Source of the DNA: Anaerolineaceae bacterium
GTDB lineage: Bacteria > Chloroflexota > Anaerolineae > Anaerolineales > Anaerolineaceae
Reading direction: 5' to 3'
Assembly: GCA_029975475.1 (NCBI GenBank)
Contig: JARKPB010000008.1
Location: 372,001 to 436,000, forward strand
DNA length: 64,000 nt
Shown here: piece after piece, positions 14,086 to 20,753 of the stretch
Position numbering within the stretch: position 1 is the first letter of the stretch
How the letters are laid out: each line of letters begins with the position of its first letter
Notes under the pieces: generated by a model
The model's database searches: none
Told to the model about the DNA's origin: nothing
The model's input: only the letters and a program-made list of their open reading frames with translations
Made by a program: the position numbers and the translations under genes

Positions 14086-14634
14086 TTATTGTCCGTTCAC
14101 AGCGTATTTTTCCGCCAGTCCGCGAGCCGCTTTGATTTCTCCGAAATACATGCGGTGATAATCCTTGCGCGGATAATTGGAAAGGATGGTTTCATCCAGA
14201 AATTGCTCGGGGCGGAAATCGCTCGCAAAGACCTTTTGACAATCCAGGATCAATTCAGCTTCAGCGAATCCAGGCGCGGCAACGACCTGGCTGGAAATCG
14301 GGGTTAACCCCGAGGCGCTGATTTTATCGCCTTCTCGTCCCGATCGAGAGCCGAGCAGTGAAAGCGCATTGCGGGCGGTTTCAGGGAAGGCGCTCAGGGT
14401 GAACGTATTGTACTTCTCCATGAACTCAAAGGTATACCGCGTCGGACGCACCACCACCAGGGCGATGGGCCGATTCCACATACAGCCAAATGCTCCCCAG
14501 CTGACTGTCATCGTGTTGAAATGCCGTTTGGAAAAATCACCCGCGGTCAGCAGGAACCACTGCTGATCCCAGATCTGATAGGATCTAAGCAGCAGGTTTT
14601 CAATTGAAATTGCCTGTCGATCAGGTACGTTCAT
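14086..14634 (-). CDS. Flavin reductase-like FMN-binding split-barrel protein
   Basis: A 182-residue protein of the flavin reductase/DIM6-NTAB family (PF01613). It has the expected FNTMTVSWGAFGCMWNRP core, where the TVS-type segment contacts FMN, then VVVRPTRYTFEFMEK and FTLSAFPETARNAL. The family supplies reduced FMN to partner monooxygenases or acts as a stand-alone flavoprotein. It overlaps the PilZ gene stop in an ATGA, so the two are coupled. No monooxygenase is nearby and the partner is unknown. Confidence 0.88.
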   Translation of the reverse strand: MNVPDRQAISIENLLLRSYQIWDQQWFLLTAGDFSKRHFNTMTVSWGAFGCMWNRPIALVVVRPTRYTFEFMEKYNTFTLSAFPETARNALSLLGSRSGREGDKISASGLTPISSQVVAAPGFAEAELILDCQKVFASDFRPEQFLDETILSNYPRKDYHRMYFGEIKAARGLAEKYAVNGQ

Positions 14635-15356
14635 ACGCTAACGCTTTCCTCCCGGGTCAGCTCGCGGCTGAGGGATTGCAGCTGAAGGATGATTTCGGAC
14701 TGCCGGGCAGCGATGTATTCAGACAGCGCGCCGGCAGCCTCTCCCTGCGGTTCCACACGGATGCCGATGCGGCGGATAAAATTACCGCGCATTTTTAACG
14801 CATTGGTGATGAATCCATCAATCACAAGCTGATGGGGGTATGTTGGCAGGGTAAACCCAACGGTGATCGGGTCATCTTTGCGGAACTCGACCTGATCATG
14901 CAGCAGCGCCGCAAAGGTGTAAACGCCCACCCCTACGGCAGATAAATCCGCCAGGGTGGCGGTCATGCGAATGCCTTCCTGGGCAACGATTGCCTGGATT
15001 GGGTCTTTGGGTTGAACGCGCAGACTTTGCCGTTTGCCAAATGACGGTCCGGCCGCGGAATAGCTGCTGAGGGTGATCAATCTGTTGGAAAAATCAAAGC
15101 TTTCTGGCACAGATTTTAAAACCATCGGAAGCTGGCTGTGCTGCAGAAAGATCTTCTTTTCCGTCCAGGCGGCGGCAATTTGATGCGGGTGAATGCTTAA
15201 AATGATTGTATTGGCCTGAACCTCACGGATGACCCCGGGGTGCTGGATGGGGACGCCGAAATAATTGTTTTGGCAGATGAGCTTTTCCTGGCTTTCCTGG
15301 ATATTGCGAAAAACCCGGTGCAGCTCCTGTCCGATTGGTTCTTCCGCAGCAACCAT
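14631..15356 (-). CDS. PilZ-domain protein, YcgR-like (cyclic di-GMP receptor)
   Basis: A 241-residue protein. Residues ~20-105 resemble the N-terminal YcgR-like barrel (PilZN). The C-terminal PilZ domain carries both cyclic di-GMP contacts: RQSLR (RxxxR) and DLSAVG (DxSxxG). In flagellated bacteria YcgR brakes motility; here no flagellar gene is present, so control of pili or surface behaviour is more likely, as inference. GGAG precedes ATG 15356. It is the first of a coupled pair with the flavin reductase. Confidence 0.85.
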   Translation of the reverse strand: MVAAEEPIGQELHRVFRNIQESQEKLICQNNYFGVPIQHPGVIREVQANTIILSIHPHQIAAAWTEKKIFLQHSQLPMVLKSVPESFDFSNRLITLSSYSAAGPSFGKRQSLRVQPKDPIQAIVAQEGIRMTATLADLSAVGVGVYTFAALLHDQVEFRKDDPITVGFTLPTYPHQLVIDGFITNALKMRGNFIRRIGIRVEPQGEAAGALSEYIAARQSEIILQLQSLSRELTREESVSV

Positions 15357-17157: not shown

Positions 17158-17184
17158 AACAAGCCCCGGCTGGGGCTTGTTTTC
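17158..17184. terminator. Hairpin terminator between ftsZ cluster and FKBP gene
   Basis: AACAAGCCCC (17158-17167) pairs with GGGGCTTGTT (17172-17181) over a 4-base loop. A short T-run lies on the + side and TTGATTATT on the minus side. It ends the leftward ftsZ gene run, whose last stop is at 17203. Confidence 0.7.
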
Positions 17185-17202: not shown

Positions 17203-17826
17203 TCAGGGGAGAATTTCGCAGCCCGTTCCGCTTTCCAGAGATCCCAGAATATCTTTCAGCTTGCCGCTGGACTGGATATGACCCGGGCTTAACTTGGCCA
17301 GGCTGGCCTGAAGCACCATCTTCCCGCTGGCTTTCTTGCCGCTGCTGCACAGCGCCTGCATCCAGCTGGATAAATCCCCCGCGCTCTTTTCCAGCCACGG
17401 CAGACTGCCGGTGAGAGCTGCCTGGTCTAGTACCAGATAGCCGTCCAGATTGATATCCAGATCTGCAGCGATGTAAGACAGAAAATTGGCGGCTGGTTCG
17501 CCGTTGCTGTTAAGACTAAATTGCTTCAATACCGCCAGATCGGCTCTTGTTGTTCCGGTGGGGAATGCAGCCTTGAAAATGACGTAGGGACCGTTGGCAG
17601 AACGATAGAAGAGAATCCACAGGGATTGTAAAACCGGTTGTCGGGCTTCAATTGAGTCCACCTGGATGATCAAGAAGTTTTTCTGGCTGCCGGGCGCCGG
17701 GGTGCTGTATTCAAGGGCGAGATTTTGACTGGGTGATTGATACAATTCTGCCGCGACGTTGTACCCGATGACAGCAGAAGCCAGGAAGGTGATAGCGATC
17801 AGGGCGGGAAAGAATTTCGTCATCAT
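17203..17826 (-). CDS. Secreted or membrane-anchored protein of unknown function
   Basis: A 207-residue protein with an N-terminal hydrophobic segment (PALIAITFLASAVIGYNVAA) and an extracytoplasmic body. Parts such as FLIIQVDSIEARQPVLQSLW and YVIFKAAFPTG loosely recall LytR-CpsA-Psr proteins, but the arginine and aspartate pattern of that family is not convincing. It is last in the ftsZ run and starts directly after the stop of the 72-residue membrane protein. An envelope or division role is suggested only by position. Confidence 0.6.
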   Translation of the reverse strand: MMTKFFPALIAITFLASAVIGYNVAAELYQSPSQNLALEYSTPAPGSQKNFLIIQVDSIEARQPVLQSLWILFYRSANGPYVIFKAAFPTGTTRADLAVLKQFSLNSNGEPAANFLSYIAADLDINLDGYLVLDQAALTGSLPWLEKSAGDLSSWMQALCSSGKKASGKMVLQASLAKLSPGHIQSSGKLKDILGSLESGTGCEILP

Positions 17827-18045
17827 TCAGCTCACCATCAAATAGAAAAATACACCGAGCGCAAAGCCGCAGATCGCAGCCAGGATCAGGATCAATCCCT
17901 GATTTAGCCAGATCAGCGTTCTGGATGGATCACTGGCGCGCTGGTTCCGCGCTATTTGATTGCGGACGTCTCTGGCGCTGGACAGGACCGGGATCGCAAC
18001 GTCCCAGAAGATCAGTTCAAATTTTCGGGTAACTTTTGGTGCCAT
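17827..18045 (-). CDS. Small single-span membrane protein in the ftsZ run
   Basis: A 72-residue protein with a basic cytoplasmic N-terminus and one C-terminal membrane helix (GLILILAAICGFALGVFFYL). Not recognised. It sits between a 69-residue protein and a secreted protein with gaps of 11 and 0 bases, so it is clearly part of the same transcript. A membrane tether for division proteins is possible but unproven. Confidence 0.6.
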   Translation of the reverse strand: MAPKVTRKFELIFWDVAIPVLSSARDVRNQIARNQRASDPSRTLIWLNQGLILILAAICGFALGVFFYLMVS

Positions 18046-18056
18046 ACTGCCTCTGC

Positions 18057-18266
18057 TTACCTGGATGTGCTCATCTTTTCAATTTTCCCGTCGGCGCTGA
18101 CGACTACTCGGACCGTGCGGTGGATCACTTTACCGTCCGCGGTTTTTGCGGTGCTTTTAAAAATCAAAAGGGTCTTTCCCCCCGGCAGGGATTGGCTGGC
18201 TGGCGCGGAGGCGCTGATCTCAGGAAATTTTTTCGCGACCTGCTGATAGATTTTTACCGTATCCAT
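18057..18266 (-). CDS. Small conserved-looking protein after ftsZ
   Basis: A 69-residue soluble protein, not recognised. The sequence alternates polar and hydrophobic residues in two or three likely beta strands (KTLLIFKSTAKTADGK, HRTVRVVVSADGKIEK), as in a small barrel or hairpin fold. It lies 18 bases after the ftsZ stop and has an AGGAGAACC site before its ATG. Confidence 0.55.
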   Translation of the reverse strand: MDTVKIYQQVAKKFPEISASAPASQSLPGGKTLLIFKSTAKTADGKVIHRTVRVVVSADGKIEKMSTSR

Positions 18267-18284: not shown

Positions 18285-19436
18285 CTAACGAGCCCGCCTT
18301 CTGAGAAACGCCGGCAGGTCAAGATCGGTCTGGGCTGCCGCCAGCTCAAGCGCGCTTGGTTCTGTCCGCTGGCGGGCGGGCTGCTCGCCAAACTGAACCG
18401 GAATGGGTGTTTCGCGCGCTTCAGTTTGAGGGCTGGCGATCGGCTGATCCACGGGGGTGGCTCCCAGGCCGGTGATGATCAGGATCACCTGGGCGTGGTT
18501 GCCCATGCGTTCATCGCAGGTCAAACCGGGGATGATTTCAGCCTGCGAATGCGTCTTCTGTTGAAGGTAATTGAGGGCTTCGGCCACTTCAAAAAACGCC
18601 AGGTCGGTGCCGCCTGAAAAATTGGCGATGATCCCGGTGGCATTTTCAATCGGAATTTCATCCAGCATGGGATGGTGCAAGGCGCGTTCGACCGCTTTGT
18701 AAGCCTTGTTTTGTCCTTCCCCCAGCCCCATCGCCATCAGGGCTCCGCCGCCGCGTTGCATCATCGCCTTGATGTGTGAAAAATCCACGTTGATAATACC
18801 CGGCATGGTAATCAGCTCGGTGATCCCCTGAATCCCCTGGCGGAGAACGTCATCCGCCATCCGAAAGGCGAGATCAAGGGGTAAATTAACCGCCGATCCC
18901 TGAAGCAGACGGTCATTGGGAACAGTGATCAGCGTGTCAGTGTGGAGGCGCAATTTTGAAAGACCTTCGCGCGCGTTTTGCTGTCGGCGCCCGATCTCGA
19001 AGGAGAAAGGCGTGGATACAATAGCCACCACGACCGCGCCGGTCGCCCGGGCTGCCCGGGCGACAACCGGTATCGAACCGGTTCCAGTTCCGCCGCCCAT
19101 ACCGGCTGTCAGAAAGACCATGTCCGCGCCGGTCAAAGCCGCGGTCAGCGTGGTGTACGATTCTTCCGCTGCCGCTTCGCCAATTTCAGGGTTTCCCCCG
19201 GCGCCCAGACCGCGTGTGATGTGCGGGCCAAGCTGAATTTTCAACGGCGCCTTGCTGGTCTTCAATGCCTGCGCGTCTGTGTTGGCAGAGATGAATTCAA
19301 TGCCCTGAATGCCGAGCTCGATCATACGGTTAATGGCGTTTTGGCCCGCGCCGCCCAGGCCAATCGCTTTGATCACCGGCTGGCGCGCGCTGATGGGCGT
19401 TCGGTTCTCTTCAGCAAACGGGTTGGTCGTGTTCAT
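18285..19436 (-). CDS. ftsZ: Cell division GTPase FtsZ
   Basis: A 383-residue tubulin-like GTPase that polymerises into the division ring. The nucleotide-binding GLGGAGQNAINRM lies near residue 26 and the tubulin signature GGGTGTGS at 114-121. NVDFSHIKAMMQRGGGALMAMG is the T7-loop region. The C-terminal peptide DLDLPAFLRRRAR is the conserved binding site for FtsA, ZipA or SepF-type partners. ftsA and ftsQ are not adjacent, so the membrane tether must be encoded elsewhere or be one of the small neighbours. It is preceded by a 437-residue unknown gene with a 3-base gap. Confidence 0.97.
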   Translation of the reverse strand: MNTTNPFAEENRTPISARQPVIKAIGLGGAGQNAINRMIELGIQGIEFISANTDAQALKTSKAPLKIQLGPHITRGLGAGGNPEIGEAAAEESYTTLTAALTGADMVFLTAGMGGGTGTGSIPVVARAARATGAVVVAIVSTPFSFEIGRRQQNAREGLSKLRLHTDTLITVPNDRLLQGSAVNLPLDLAFRMADDVLRQGIQGITELITMPGIINVDFSHIKAMMQRGGGALMAMGLGEGQNKAYKAVERALHHPMLDEIPIENATGIIANFSGGTDLAFFEVAEALNYLQQKTHSQAEIIPGLTCDERMGNHAQVILIITGLGATPVDQPIASPQTEARETPIPVQFGEQPARQRTEPSALELAAAQTDLDLPAFLRRRAR

Positions 19437-19439
19437 GCT

Positions 19440-20753
19440 TCACCTCTCTGCCAGTGTTGTTGCAATTGCTGTGCCATCTCCGCTGATCTCTTCGACCAGG
19501 CAGCCGTTCGCGCGTAAATAGGACAGAGCTTCTTCAGAAAACGCGCCGTTGTTGGCCACCACAGTGACGCGGGCCGCCTGAAGGGCTTCCTGTAGTGAGA
19601 ACCCCACGGTTGGCTGATATTTCTTGATAAACGGTTTAATCACCTCAAGATGCCATTCGGCCACTCCCCAGTCATAAGACGGCAGCAGCAGGTAATGCTG
19701 GATCGTCTTGCCGTTATTGAGGGAGGCCGCTTTGGATTTTGAGGCGCGTTCCTTTTTTTGCAATGAAAGGCTGCTGATCTCTTTTCTGGCTTTCCCGTCG
19801 GGGGTAAACCAGGCTTCCGGGAAATACGGTGAGTCTTCTTCGGCGGACAACAGCCAGAAGCAAACCGCAAGTATTTTGTCGTTCAATCCTGCCTGTTCTC
19901 CTTCACTTTTATCTTTTGGCGGAGCGGAGATGAGGTCGGCGATCGCCTGAATGGTTTCTTTCTCGATTCCTTTGTTCTGTTCCGCATGGAATTCACAACT
20001 GGCGTTCTTTCTACCAGCCTGAAGGAGAATCACTGGCAGTTCATTTTGCAATTCCGCCTGAGCAATGGTCTGGTACCAGTCAAAAATCCGAAATCCGCGT
20101 TGATCCTGACTGCCTTCGGGTAAATAATACGGTCTGGAGTCCGGCCAGACCATCGGTCCGCCCGCGCCCCAGTCAAGGGGGTGACCGTGGGTCCAGGCGT
20201 AGGCGCTCAATACCAGCGATTCCAGCAGCGCCGTTTGTTTGCGGTTGCGCAGACCTCTCAATGCGCTGCGCAAAAAGATCGTGTCCCAGAAATCACCGCC
20301 GGGCTCAAGGGGCGGAAAAACCGGCCGCAGACCGCACTGCAGGGCAGTATTGGCCAGCGGAAGCCAGCGGTCGAGAAAGCGGTCAACCAGATCCTGTTCC
20401 ACCCAGGCTGAGCCGGACCAGGAAGCGGCGCAGTTTGGCCGGTCGTGCAGAATAATTTGCTTAACCCCCCAGCCAGCGTAAGCCCTGAAAAGAATTGCCA
20501 GGTCCGCGGTCGGCAGGTCGGCGGACAGGTCGGCGCGGATATGCGGAATGGGGGCGATGCCTGCCTGTTGAACCCCGCGGATAAAGTCCTCCGGGATTGC
20601 CCTGAACGGGTGAGCTTCCAGCACCAGCCAGCCTGCGTTGATTTCAACCAGGTTTGGCAGCCAGAGCGCCAGATCTTTTTCGCGATAATGCAGCGAATCC
20701 GGAAAGTAATGCAGTCCAAAACGTGTGTTGGTTGGGAAACCTGGTCCTGCCAT
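19440..20753 (-). CDS. Unknown protein with possible TIM-barrel fold, upstream of ftsZ
   Basis: A 437-residue protein without a recognised family. The first ~270 residues suggest a beta/alpha barrel of the glycoside hydrolase type: FGLHYFPDSLHY, INAGWLVLEAHPFRAI, PIPHIRADLSADL, KQIILHDRPN, and a late RIFDWYQTIAQAE. The last ~90 residues form a separate alpha/beta part (QHYLLLPSYDWGVAEWHLEV, TVGFSLQEALQAARVTVVAN). No signal peptide is seen, so it is cytoplasmic or exported another way. GAGG precedes ATG 20753. It probably shares a transcript with ftsZ. Confidence 0.62.
   Translation of the reverse strand: MAGPGFPTNTRFGLHYFPDSLHYREKDLALWLPNLVEINAGWLVLEAHPFRAIPEDFIRGVQQAGIAPIPHIRADLSADLPTADLAILFRAYAGWGVKQIILHDRPNCAASWSGSAWVEQDLVDRFLDRWLPLANTALQCGLRPVFPPLEPGGDFWDTIFLRSALRGLRNRKQTALLESLVLSAYAWTHGHPLDWGAGGPMVWPDSRPYYLPEGSQDQRGFRIFDWYQTIAQAELQNELPVILLQAGRKNASCEFHAEQNKGIEKETIQAIADLISAPPKDKSEGEQAGLNDKILAVCFWLLSAEEDSPYFPEAWFTPDGKARKEISSLSLQKKERASKSKAASLNNGKTIQHYLLLPSYDWGVAEWHLEVIKPFIKKYQPTVGFSLQEALQAARVTVVANNGAFSEEALSYLRANGCLVEEISGDGTAIATTLAER

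Follow-up and report, generated by a model that had tools for sequence, protein, structure and literature searches.

The locus raised the question of what three small genes do behind an ftsZ that has neither ftsA nor ftsQ beside it. An initial annotation of the window, the whole 64,000-nucleotide stretch of Anaerolineaceae DNA analyzed here, had described these genes as following ftsZ closely and had suggested that one of them may tether or regulate the division ring. The ORF calls bore out the layout: g1, g2, and g3 lie exactly where described on the minus strand, with 18 bases between ftsZ and g1, 11 between g1 and g2, and 0 between g2 and g3. A gene that had been missed, up, is part of the same unit, and the five minus-strand ORFs together run from 20753 to 17203 (Table 1). 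We consider g1, g2, and g3 genuine genes because homologs of all three follow this ftsZ in unchanged order in other genera and families. Together, up, ftsZ2, g1, g2, and g3 make up a five-gene unit that belongs to the order Anaerolineales. A PADLOC search for anti-phage defense gave no match to any of the five unit proteins. Hairpin-type sites, of which one lies 3' of g3, number 15 in the region versus 7.0 expected. A few kilobases downstream of the unit, the window encodes a PilZ-like protein (14631-15356; Pfam score of 21.3 versus a 22.5-bit cutoff).

Table 1. Features of the ftsZ2 locus, with positions in the window
Feature	Position	Strand	Description
up	19440-20753	-	437 aa, first gene of the unit, 3 bases upstream of ftsZ2
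ftsZ2 (second FtsZ paralog)	18285-19436	-	383 aa
FtsZ2 T7 loop NVDFSH, residues 216-221	18774-18791	-	His at the E. coli FtsZ D212 position
FtsZ2 C-terminal anchor-type peptide DLDLPAFLRRRAR	18288-18326	-	strict pattern matched by 49/54 FtsZ2
g1	18057-18266	-	69 aa, predicted soluble helix and four-stranded sheet
g2	17827-18045	-	72 aa, one predicted C-terminal membrane span, residues 51-69
g3	17203-17826	-	207 aa, predicted N-terminal membrane anchor; predicted extracytoplasmic LCP-fold domain at about 17206-17688
Terminator-like hairpin 3' of g3	17158-17181	-	10-pair stem on both strands, pattern match only

The second ftsZ and its T7 loop

A six-frame search of the window's own genome found a second FtsZ gene, ftsZ1 (E 1.6e-51; C18:1,388-1,390 kb), 1 Mb from the window copy. 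In the same interval, ftsA directly precedes it (E 3.4e-37), and before ftsA lies an FtsQ-like ORF whose match to the FtsQ-type POTRA domain (E 1.9e-4, 22.1 bits) falls just under the 23-bit cutoff. The genes ahead of this ORF we take to be murC, murB, and ddl. This standard murC-murB-ddl-ftsQ-like-ftsA-ftsZ1 cluster is the main ftsZ site, which makes the copy in the window a second ftsZ. We call the two products FtsZ1 and FtsZ2; these are labels of the present analysis and imply no orthology with the FtsZ1 and FtsZ2 of other systems. Thus, the absence of ftsA and ftsQ that the initial annotation had pointed out is true of the window locus but not of the genome. As for anchors encoded elsewhere, FtsA was found beside ftsZ1, but SepF (PF04472), ZipA (PF04354), and ZapA gave no match in the window's genome, with control genomes positive in each search. 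SepF was found in 0 of 61 genomes of the order, again with positive control genomes. Therefore, g1 and g2 may still serve as an additional anchor.

The window FtsZ2 matches the curated FtsZ model TIGR00065 (E 2.1e-109; 366 bits versus a 295-bit cutoff) as well as the Pfam families PF00091 (Tubulin) and PF12327 (FtsZ_C). We found a second ftsZ in 53 of 60 relatives of the order Anaerolineales, which represent 13 of the 15 sampled families. Two of the seven relatives without FtsZ2 are incomplete genomes (G005 and G023), and the other five (G039, G041, G047, G054, and G060) come from families f4, f6, and f12; in 11 of 11 f12 genomes, there is one FtsZ only. In a tree of 122 rows, made by a quick method with SH-aLRT support and no bootstrap, the 54 FtsZ2 sequences (the window included) formed one side of a branch with support of 99. 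Neither the ftsA-linked FtsZ nor the second copies carried by other Chloroflexota lineages fall within this clade. X letters were deleted from the rows, and a partial FtsZ (L096) and the duplicate loci L158, L160, L162, L164, L166, and L197 were left out of the tree.

Residues of the GTP-binding and T7 regions were numbered after what we take to be the E. coli FtsZ reference sequence. In the alignment, the glycine-rich GTP-binding box (G, G, T, G at positions 106 to 109) is kept in 54/54 FtsZ2, and D209 is kept in 52/54. D212 is replaced in 53 of the 54, by His in 46, Asn in 6, and Ala in 1, with L089 retaining Asp. Both T7 aspartates, D209 and D212, are kept in all 7 FtsZ1 of the same alignment. 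Among 77 FtsZ2 loci of named genomes, drawn from the best 80 of 172 confirmed stretches (3 of the 80 lack ftsZ at contig ends), the T7 residue is His in 74, Asn in 1, and Asp in 2, and both Asp-keeping loci lack D209 instead. The named-genome loci and the 53 loci of the relatives overlap in genomes, so the two sets are not additive. All 68 further FtsZ loci examined from Chloroflexota, some of them duplicates, have both T7 aspartates. In several of these other lineages, a second ftsZ also lies away from ftsA (L159, L161, L163, L165, L167, L169, L171, L177, L179, L181, L188, L190, and L192); these copies keep both T7 aspartates and fall outside the FtsZ2 clade.

The T7 loop of FtsZ acts on the nucleotide of the neighboring subunit. 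Therefore, FtsZ1 could still hydrolyze the GTP of an FtsZ2 neighbor in a mixed filament. The E. coli D212G protein is reported to have about tenfold-lower GTPase activity and to stop treadmilling while still forming rings, which are static (PMC7320174), and D212A is reported to leave 7% of the GTPase activity (PMC8142252). Because the GTP box is kept, the C-terminal peptide fits a strict pattern in 49/54 FtsZ2, the T7 aspartate is lost, and the E. coli D212 mutants are slow, FtsZ2 probably binds GTP and polymerizes with slow turnover. A literature search, with most subscription journals outside its coverage, found no description of a second FtsZ of Anaerolineae. PMC9871819 treats Chloroflexota FtsZ and CetZ-like proteins, and the part of that paper available to us contains no FtsZ2-type paralog.

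Genes that accompany ftsZ2

The gene up lies directly upstream of ftsZ2 in all 53 loci of the relatives, and g1 lies behind ftsZ2 in 49. Of the four loci without g1, L080 ends 51 bases past ftsZ and L056 has assembly gaps; g1 is present in 48 of the 51 loci that extend at least 700 bases downstream. The numbers are lower for g2 (33/53) and g3 (36/53). At loci with at least 3 kb downstream, g2 is found in 29/45 and g3 in 32/45, leaving 16 and 13 at which they are missing or unrecognized. Two of the 34 g2 matches (L049 and L059) are weak, with E about 0.01. In the named-genome loci (from the best 80 of 172), g1 was found in 73/74, g2 in 61/74, and g3 in 61/66. Named carriers include Levilinea saccharolytica, Longilinea arvoryzae, Bellilinea caldifistulae, Anaerolinea thermolimosa, and Leptolinea sp. 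HRD-7. Thus, the association with ftsZ that the initial annotation had noticed reaches well beyond close relatives, to 13 of the 15 sampled families of the order.

None of up, g1, g2, and g3 was found at the six FtsZ1 loci of the relatives that have downstream sequence; seven FtsZ1 loci were sampled, and L096, cut at the gene, is uninformative on its neighbors. Nor were the four genes found, within the stretch examined, at the 68 other Chloroflexota FtsZ loci. We detected g1 in 194 of 301 genomes sampled from the order and in 17 of 301 sampled from the phylum, where it is absent from 17/17 genomes of family f12. The whole unit is missing from f12. Since this family divides without the unit, the unit is dispensable for cell division itself.

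Several apparent fusions were rejected. In L079, a run of unknown bases (translated XXX) lies between FtsZ2 and g1; the 813-aa FtsZ of L087 is an out-of-frame extension; and the 648-aa frame that holds g1 in L118 has FtsZ in another frame. Runs of unknown bases inside the operon, as in the 4464 region of L079 and in L056, mimic a fusion or a missing gene. At 13 of 37 g3 loci, g2 and g3 are separated by an extra gene of about 340 to 420 aa whose start resembles a signal peptide (for example, L042 5612-6724); the window has no such gene. One of four extra genes scanned gave a weak Glyco_hydro_42 hint (E 0.015).

Outside the order, g1-like stretches occur as the C-terminal ends of large proteins of about 880 to 900 residues. 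The genes for these proteins directly precede an up homolog, with no ftsZ within the stretch examined, and one of three fragments scanned matched Peptidase_C25 (E 3.5e-12). Nine of the 53 FtsZ2 loci, none of them from the window's family, also have a relative of the large gene upstream of up. Loci with the large protein and an up homolog include L119 (1393-5466) and L120-L123 and, together with FtsZ2, L078-L080 and L083-L088; the motifs LHG.E and EACYG are present in two copies checked. The large g1-ended protein and up are possibly an undescribed two-gene module. In the simplest history, ftsZ2 would have joined an existing up/g1-domain module, and the window's family would have lost the large gene.

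Predicted folds and topology of the partner proteins

The up protein has no Pfam or NCBIfam family and no convincing PDB match. The NEPN motif of up homologs, possibly glycosidase-like, is mostly replaced by DRPN at FtsZ2 loci. This is a hint only, from a comparison with five homologs that do not come from FtsZ2 loci: NEPN is found in three of them, QEPN in one, and SRPN in one.

By hydropathy, g1 has no membrane span in 50/50 homologs, g2 has one C-terminal span in 33/34, and g3 has an N-terminal span in 36/37, the window copy included in each case. Thus, "beta-type," "single-span," and "exported," the terms used in the initial annotation, were fair descriptions, although g3 is better called membrane anchored and extracytoplasmic. 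The model of g1 (pLDDT 87.8; alignment A1, n = 50) has one helix and a four-stranded sheet. Its fold matches are generic, to cystatin/NTF2-like arrangements (best Z 6.5), and by sequence it has weak, chance-like matches only in Pfam and the PDB. PF04472 is not among the families matched by the 50 A1 members, and there is no SepF among the 50 fold matches listed. In g2, the charge before the span is mostly positive, consistent with a cytosolic N-terminal part, and E10 and W14 are nearly invariant (alignment A3, n = 32). For g3, the domain following the span would lie outside the cell.

No Pfam family was found for the window's g1, g2, or g3, and in that sense they are the unknown genes of the initial annotation, but the g3 model has a recognizable fold. 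A search of the PDB with the g3 sequence profile placed four LytR-CpsA-Psr (LCP) proteins at the top, with E values of 0.02 to 0.12, which would not suffice by themselves. In a structure search, the model (pLDDT 85.7) gave 26 LCP rows, with Z from 10.3 to 7.1 and the next row at 5.2, and the first 23 Foldseek rows were LCP proteins (best E 6.3e-5). Apart from g3, three canonical LCPs are encoded in the genome, and the g3 profile matched these with E 2.7e-6 and a probability of 88.6. We therefore predict that g3 is an anchored extracytoplasmic protein of LCP fold. PF03816 matched 0/36 g3 members at E up to 1, and no well-filled column of alignment A2 has Arg in at least 40% of the sequences. 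The conserved residues are instead D56 (30 of 36), W69 (35), D133 (33), C159 (29), and C202 (29). LCP enzymes are reported to need their arginines (LcpA, PMC6381275; also PMC7831098), whereas g3 has no conserved arginine. Thus, g3 is unlikely to be a transferase.

A possible coupling of FtsZ2 to the envelope

The composition and conservation of the unit are well supported; its linkage and function we infer. Our leading interpretation, which is tentative and falls somewhat short of an even chance, is that the five-gene unit couples a slow or static FtsZ2 scaffold to the envelope through g1, g2, and the noncatalytic LCP-fold protein g3, most likely at the septum. FtsZ2 would bind GTP and polymerize, by itself or together with FtsZ1, into filaments that are slow or static, and g1 would bind FtsZ2. 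At the membrane, g2 would hold g1 and FtsZ2, perhaps with FtsA too. Outside, g3 would hold or sense a lipid-linked glycopolymer or wall material without catalysis, and the unit would in this way tie a stable FtsZ-type scaffold to the envelope. We favor coupling because FtsZ2 is a separate clade that has lost the T7 aspartate, because its partners are kept across 13 families and are absent at FtsZ1 loci, because g3 has a predicted LCP fold without conserved arginines, because SepF was not found in the order, and because the predicted topologies of g1, g2, and g3 form a chain from the cytosol through the membrane to the outside. Against it, the unit is missing from f12, g2 and g3 are missing or unrecognized at 16 and 13 of 45 loci, and g1-like domains and up homologs co-occur without ftsZ outside the order. 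Furthermore, the C-terminal peptide retained by FtsZ2 is a possible binding site for FtsA, and g1 and g2 need therefore not be the anchor of FtsZ2.

That retained peptide, together with the presence of FtsA, favors a different explanation, in which FtsZ2 copolymerizes with FtsZ1 and so stabilizes the Z ring, much as a single ring contains two FtsZs in chloroplasts. FtsA would tether FtsZ2 by the peptide that both paralogs share, and up and g1 to g3 would be coregulated envelope genes that do not bind it. In Arabidopsis, one FtsZ is reported to tune the filament stability of the other (PMC8142252). However, this explanation does not account for the constant company that up (53/53) and g1 (48/51) keep with FtsZ2 only, and we consider it somewhat unlikely. 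Also unlikely is a more elaborate form of coupling with two filaments, a treadmilling FtsZ1 and a static, hydrolysis-poor FtsZ2, the latter having a dedicated g1-g2-g3 chain to a noncatalytic LCP-fold receptor for wall glycopolymer or its lipid-linked precursors. If it were true, the division cytoskeleton would have its own line to wall assembly.

FtsZ2 may instead serve a membrane process other than division. It would then have joined, as a filament scaffold, an older module with an envelope or stress role that consisted of up and the C25-peptidase-like, g1-ended protein. The up/g1-domain layer without ftsZ is the main reason to keep this alternative alive: the large protein precedes up outside the order and in 9/53 FtsZ2 loci, with one clear Peptidase_C25 match. 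The unit is also dispensable in family f12, and FtsZl1 genes, for which a role other than cell division has been proposed, are reported in membrane-protein operons beside an ordinary FtsZ (PMC2875224). However, the window FtsZ2 is a full FtsZ by TIGR00065 with a division-type C-terminal peptide, and the fold of g3 is one of wall assembly. We regard a role outside division as unlikely.

If regional gene order were simply stable in the family, the unit could be a conserved neighborhood with no functional link. The upstream flank is indeed stable in general, with a divergent epimerase kept in 30/44 loci and GH57 in 24/44, and synteny is therefore weaker evidence on that side. Beyond g3, however, the order is not kept (FKBP, next to g3 in the window, is nearby in 10/45 loci, and the esterase that follows it there is nearby in 0/45), whereas up and g1 stay with ftsZ2 across families. 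This makes a mere neighborhood very improbable. Finally, although the genome lacks matches to SepF, ZipA, and ZapA, it is hardly credible that, for want of ftsA, the main division ring is tethered by g1 or g2: FtsA adjoins the main ftsZ, the ftsZ of the window is a second one, and the premise is thus already refuted. What survives of the suggestion that g1 to g3 tether or regulate a ring is thus an old, selective association with an ftsZ in a genome without SepF, ZipA, or ZapA; the ftsZ concerned is a second one with a broken T7 loop, and FtsA exists.

On the coupling interpretation, this is an FtsZ paralog system with an apparent trans-envelope operon of its own, in which FtsZ2 keeps dedicated partner genes whose products are predicted on both sides of the membrane. 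Nearly a whole FtsZ clade lacks the residue that laboratory mutants need for treadmilling, which makes it a natural experiment on the purpose of FtsZ hydrolysis. Because the unit is present in cultured species (Levilinea, Longilinea, Bellilinea, and Anaerolinea), the question is testable. Genes that have no Pfam or NCBIfam family name gain a setting, and g3 gains a predicted fold as well.

Parts of the unit resemble known systems. As a soluble domain and a membrane span encoded beside ftsZ, g1 and g2 could do the same job as the FtsZ anchors SepF and ZipA; neither of these was matched in the genome, and g1, with one helix and four strands, has generic fold matches. With the LCP transferases TagT/TagU/TagV, Cps2A, and LcpA, g3 shares the predicted fold and N-terminal anchor, but it lacks the conserved arginine and a PF03816 match in 36/36 members. 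The FtsZl1 family (Makarova and Koonin 2010, PMC2875224) is likewise reported as an FtsZ-superfamily gene beside an ordinary FtsZ, in membrane-protein operons. In contrast to FtsZl1, FtsZ2 is a true FtsZ by TIGR00065, and Pfam finds no vWA domain in the window's up, g1, g2, or g3 at E up to 1. Chloroplast FtsZ1/FtsZ2 (PMC8142252) and the dual FtsZ of archaea (PMC12583498, PMC12343686) are described, as here, as two paralogs per compartment, presumably with different dynamics. Unlike these, the Anaerolineales FtsZ2 lacks the T7 aspartate in nearly its whole clade and has a partner operon of its own.
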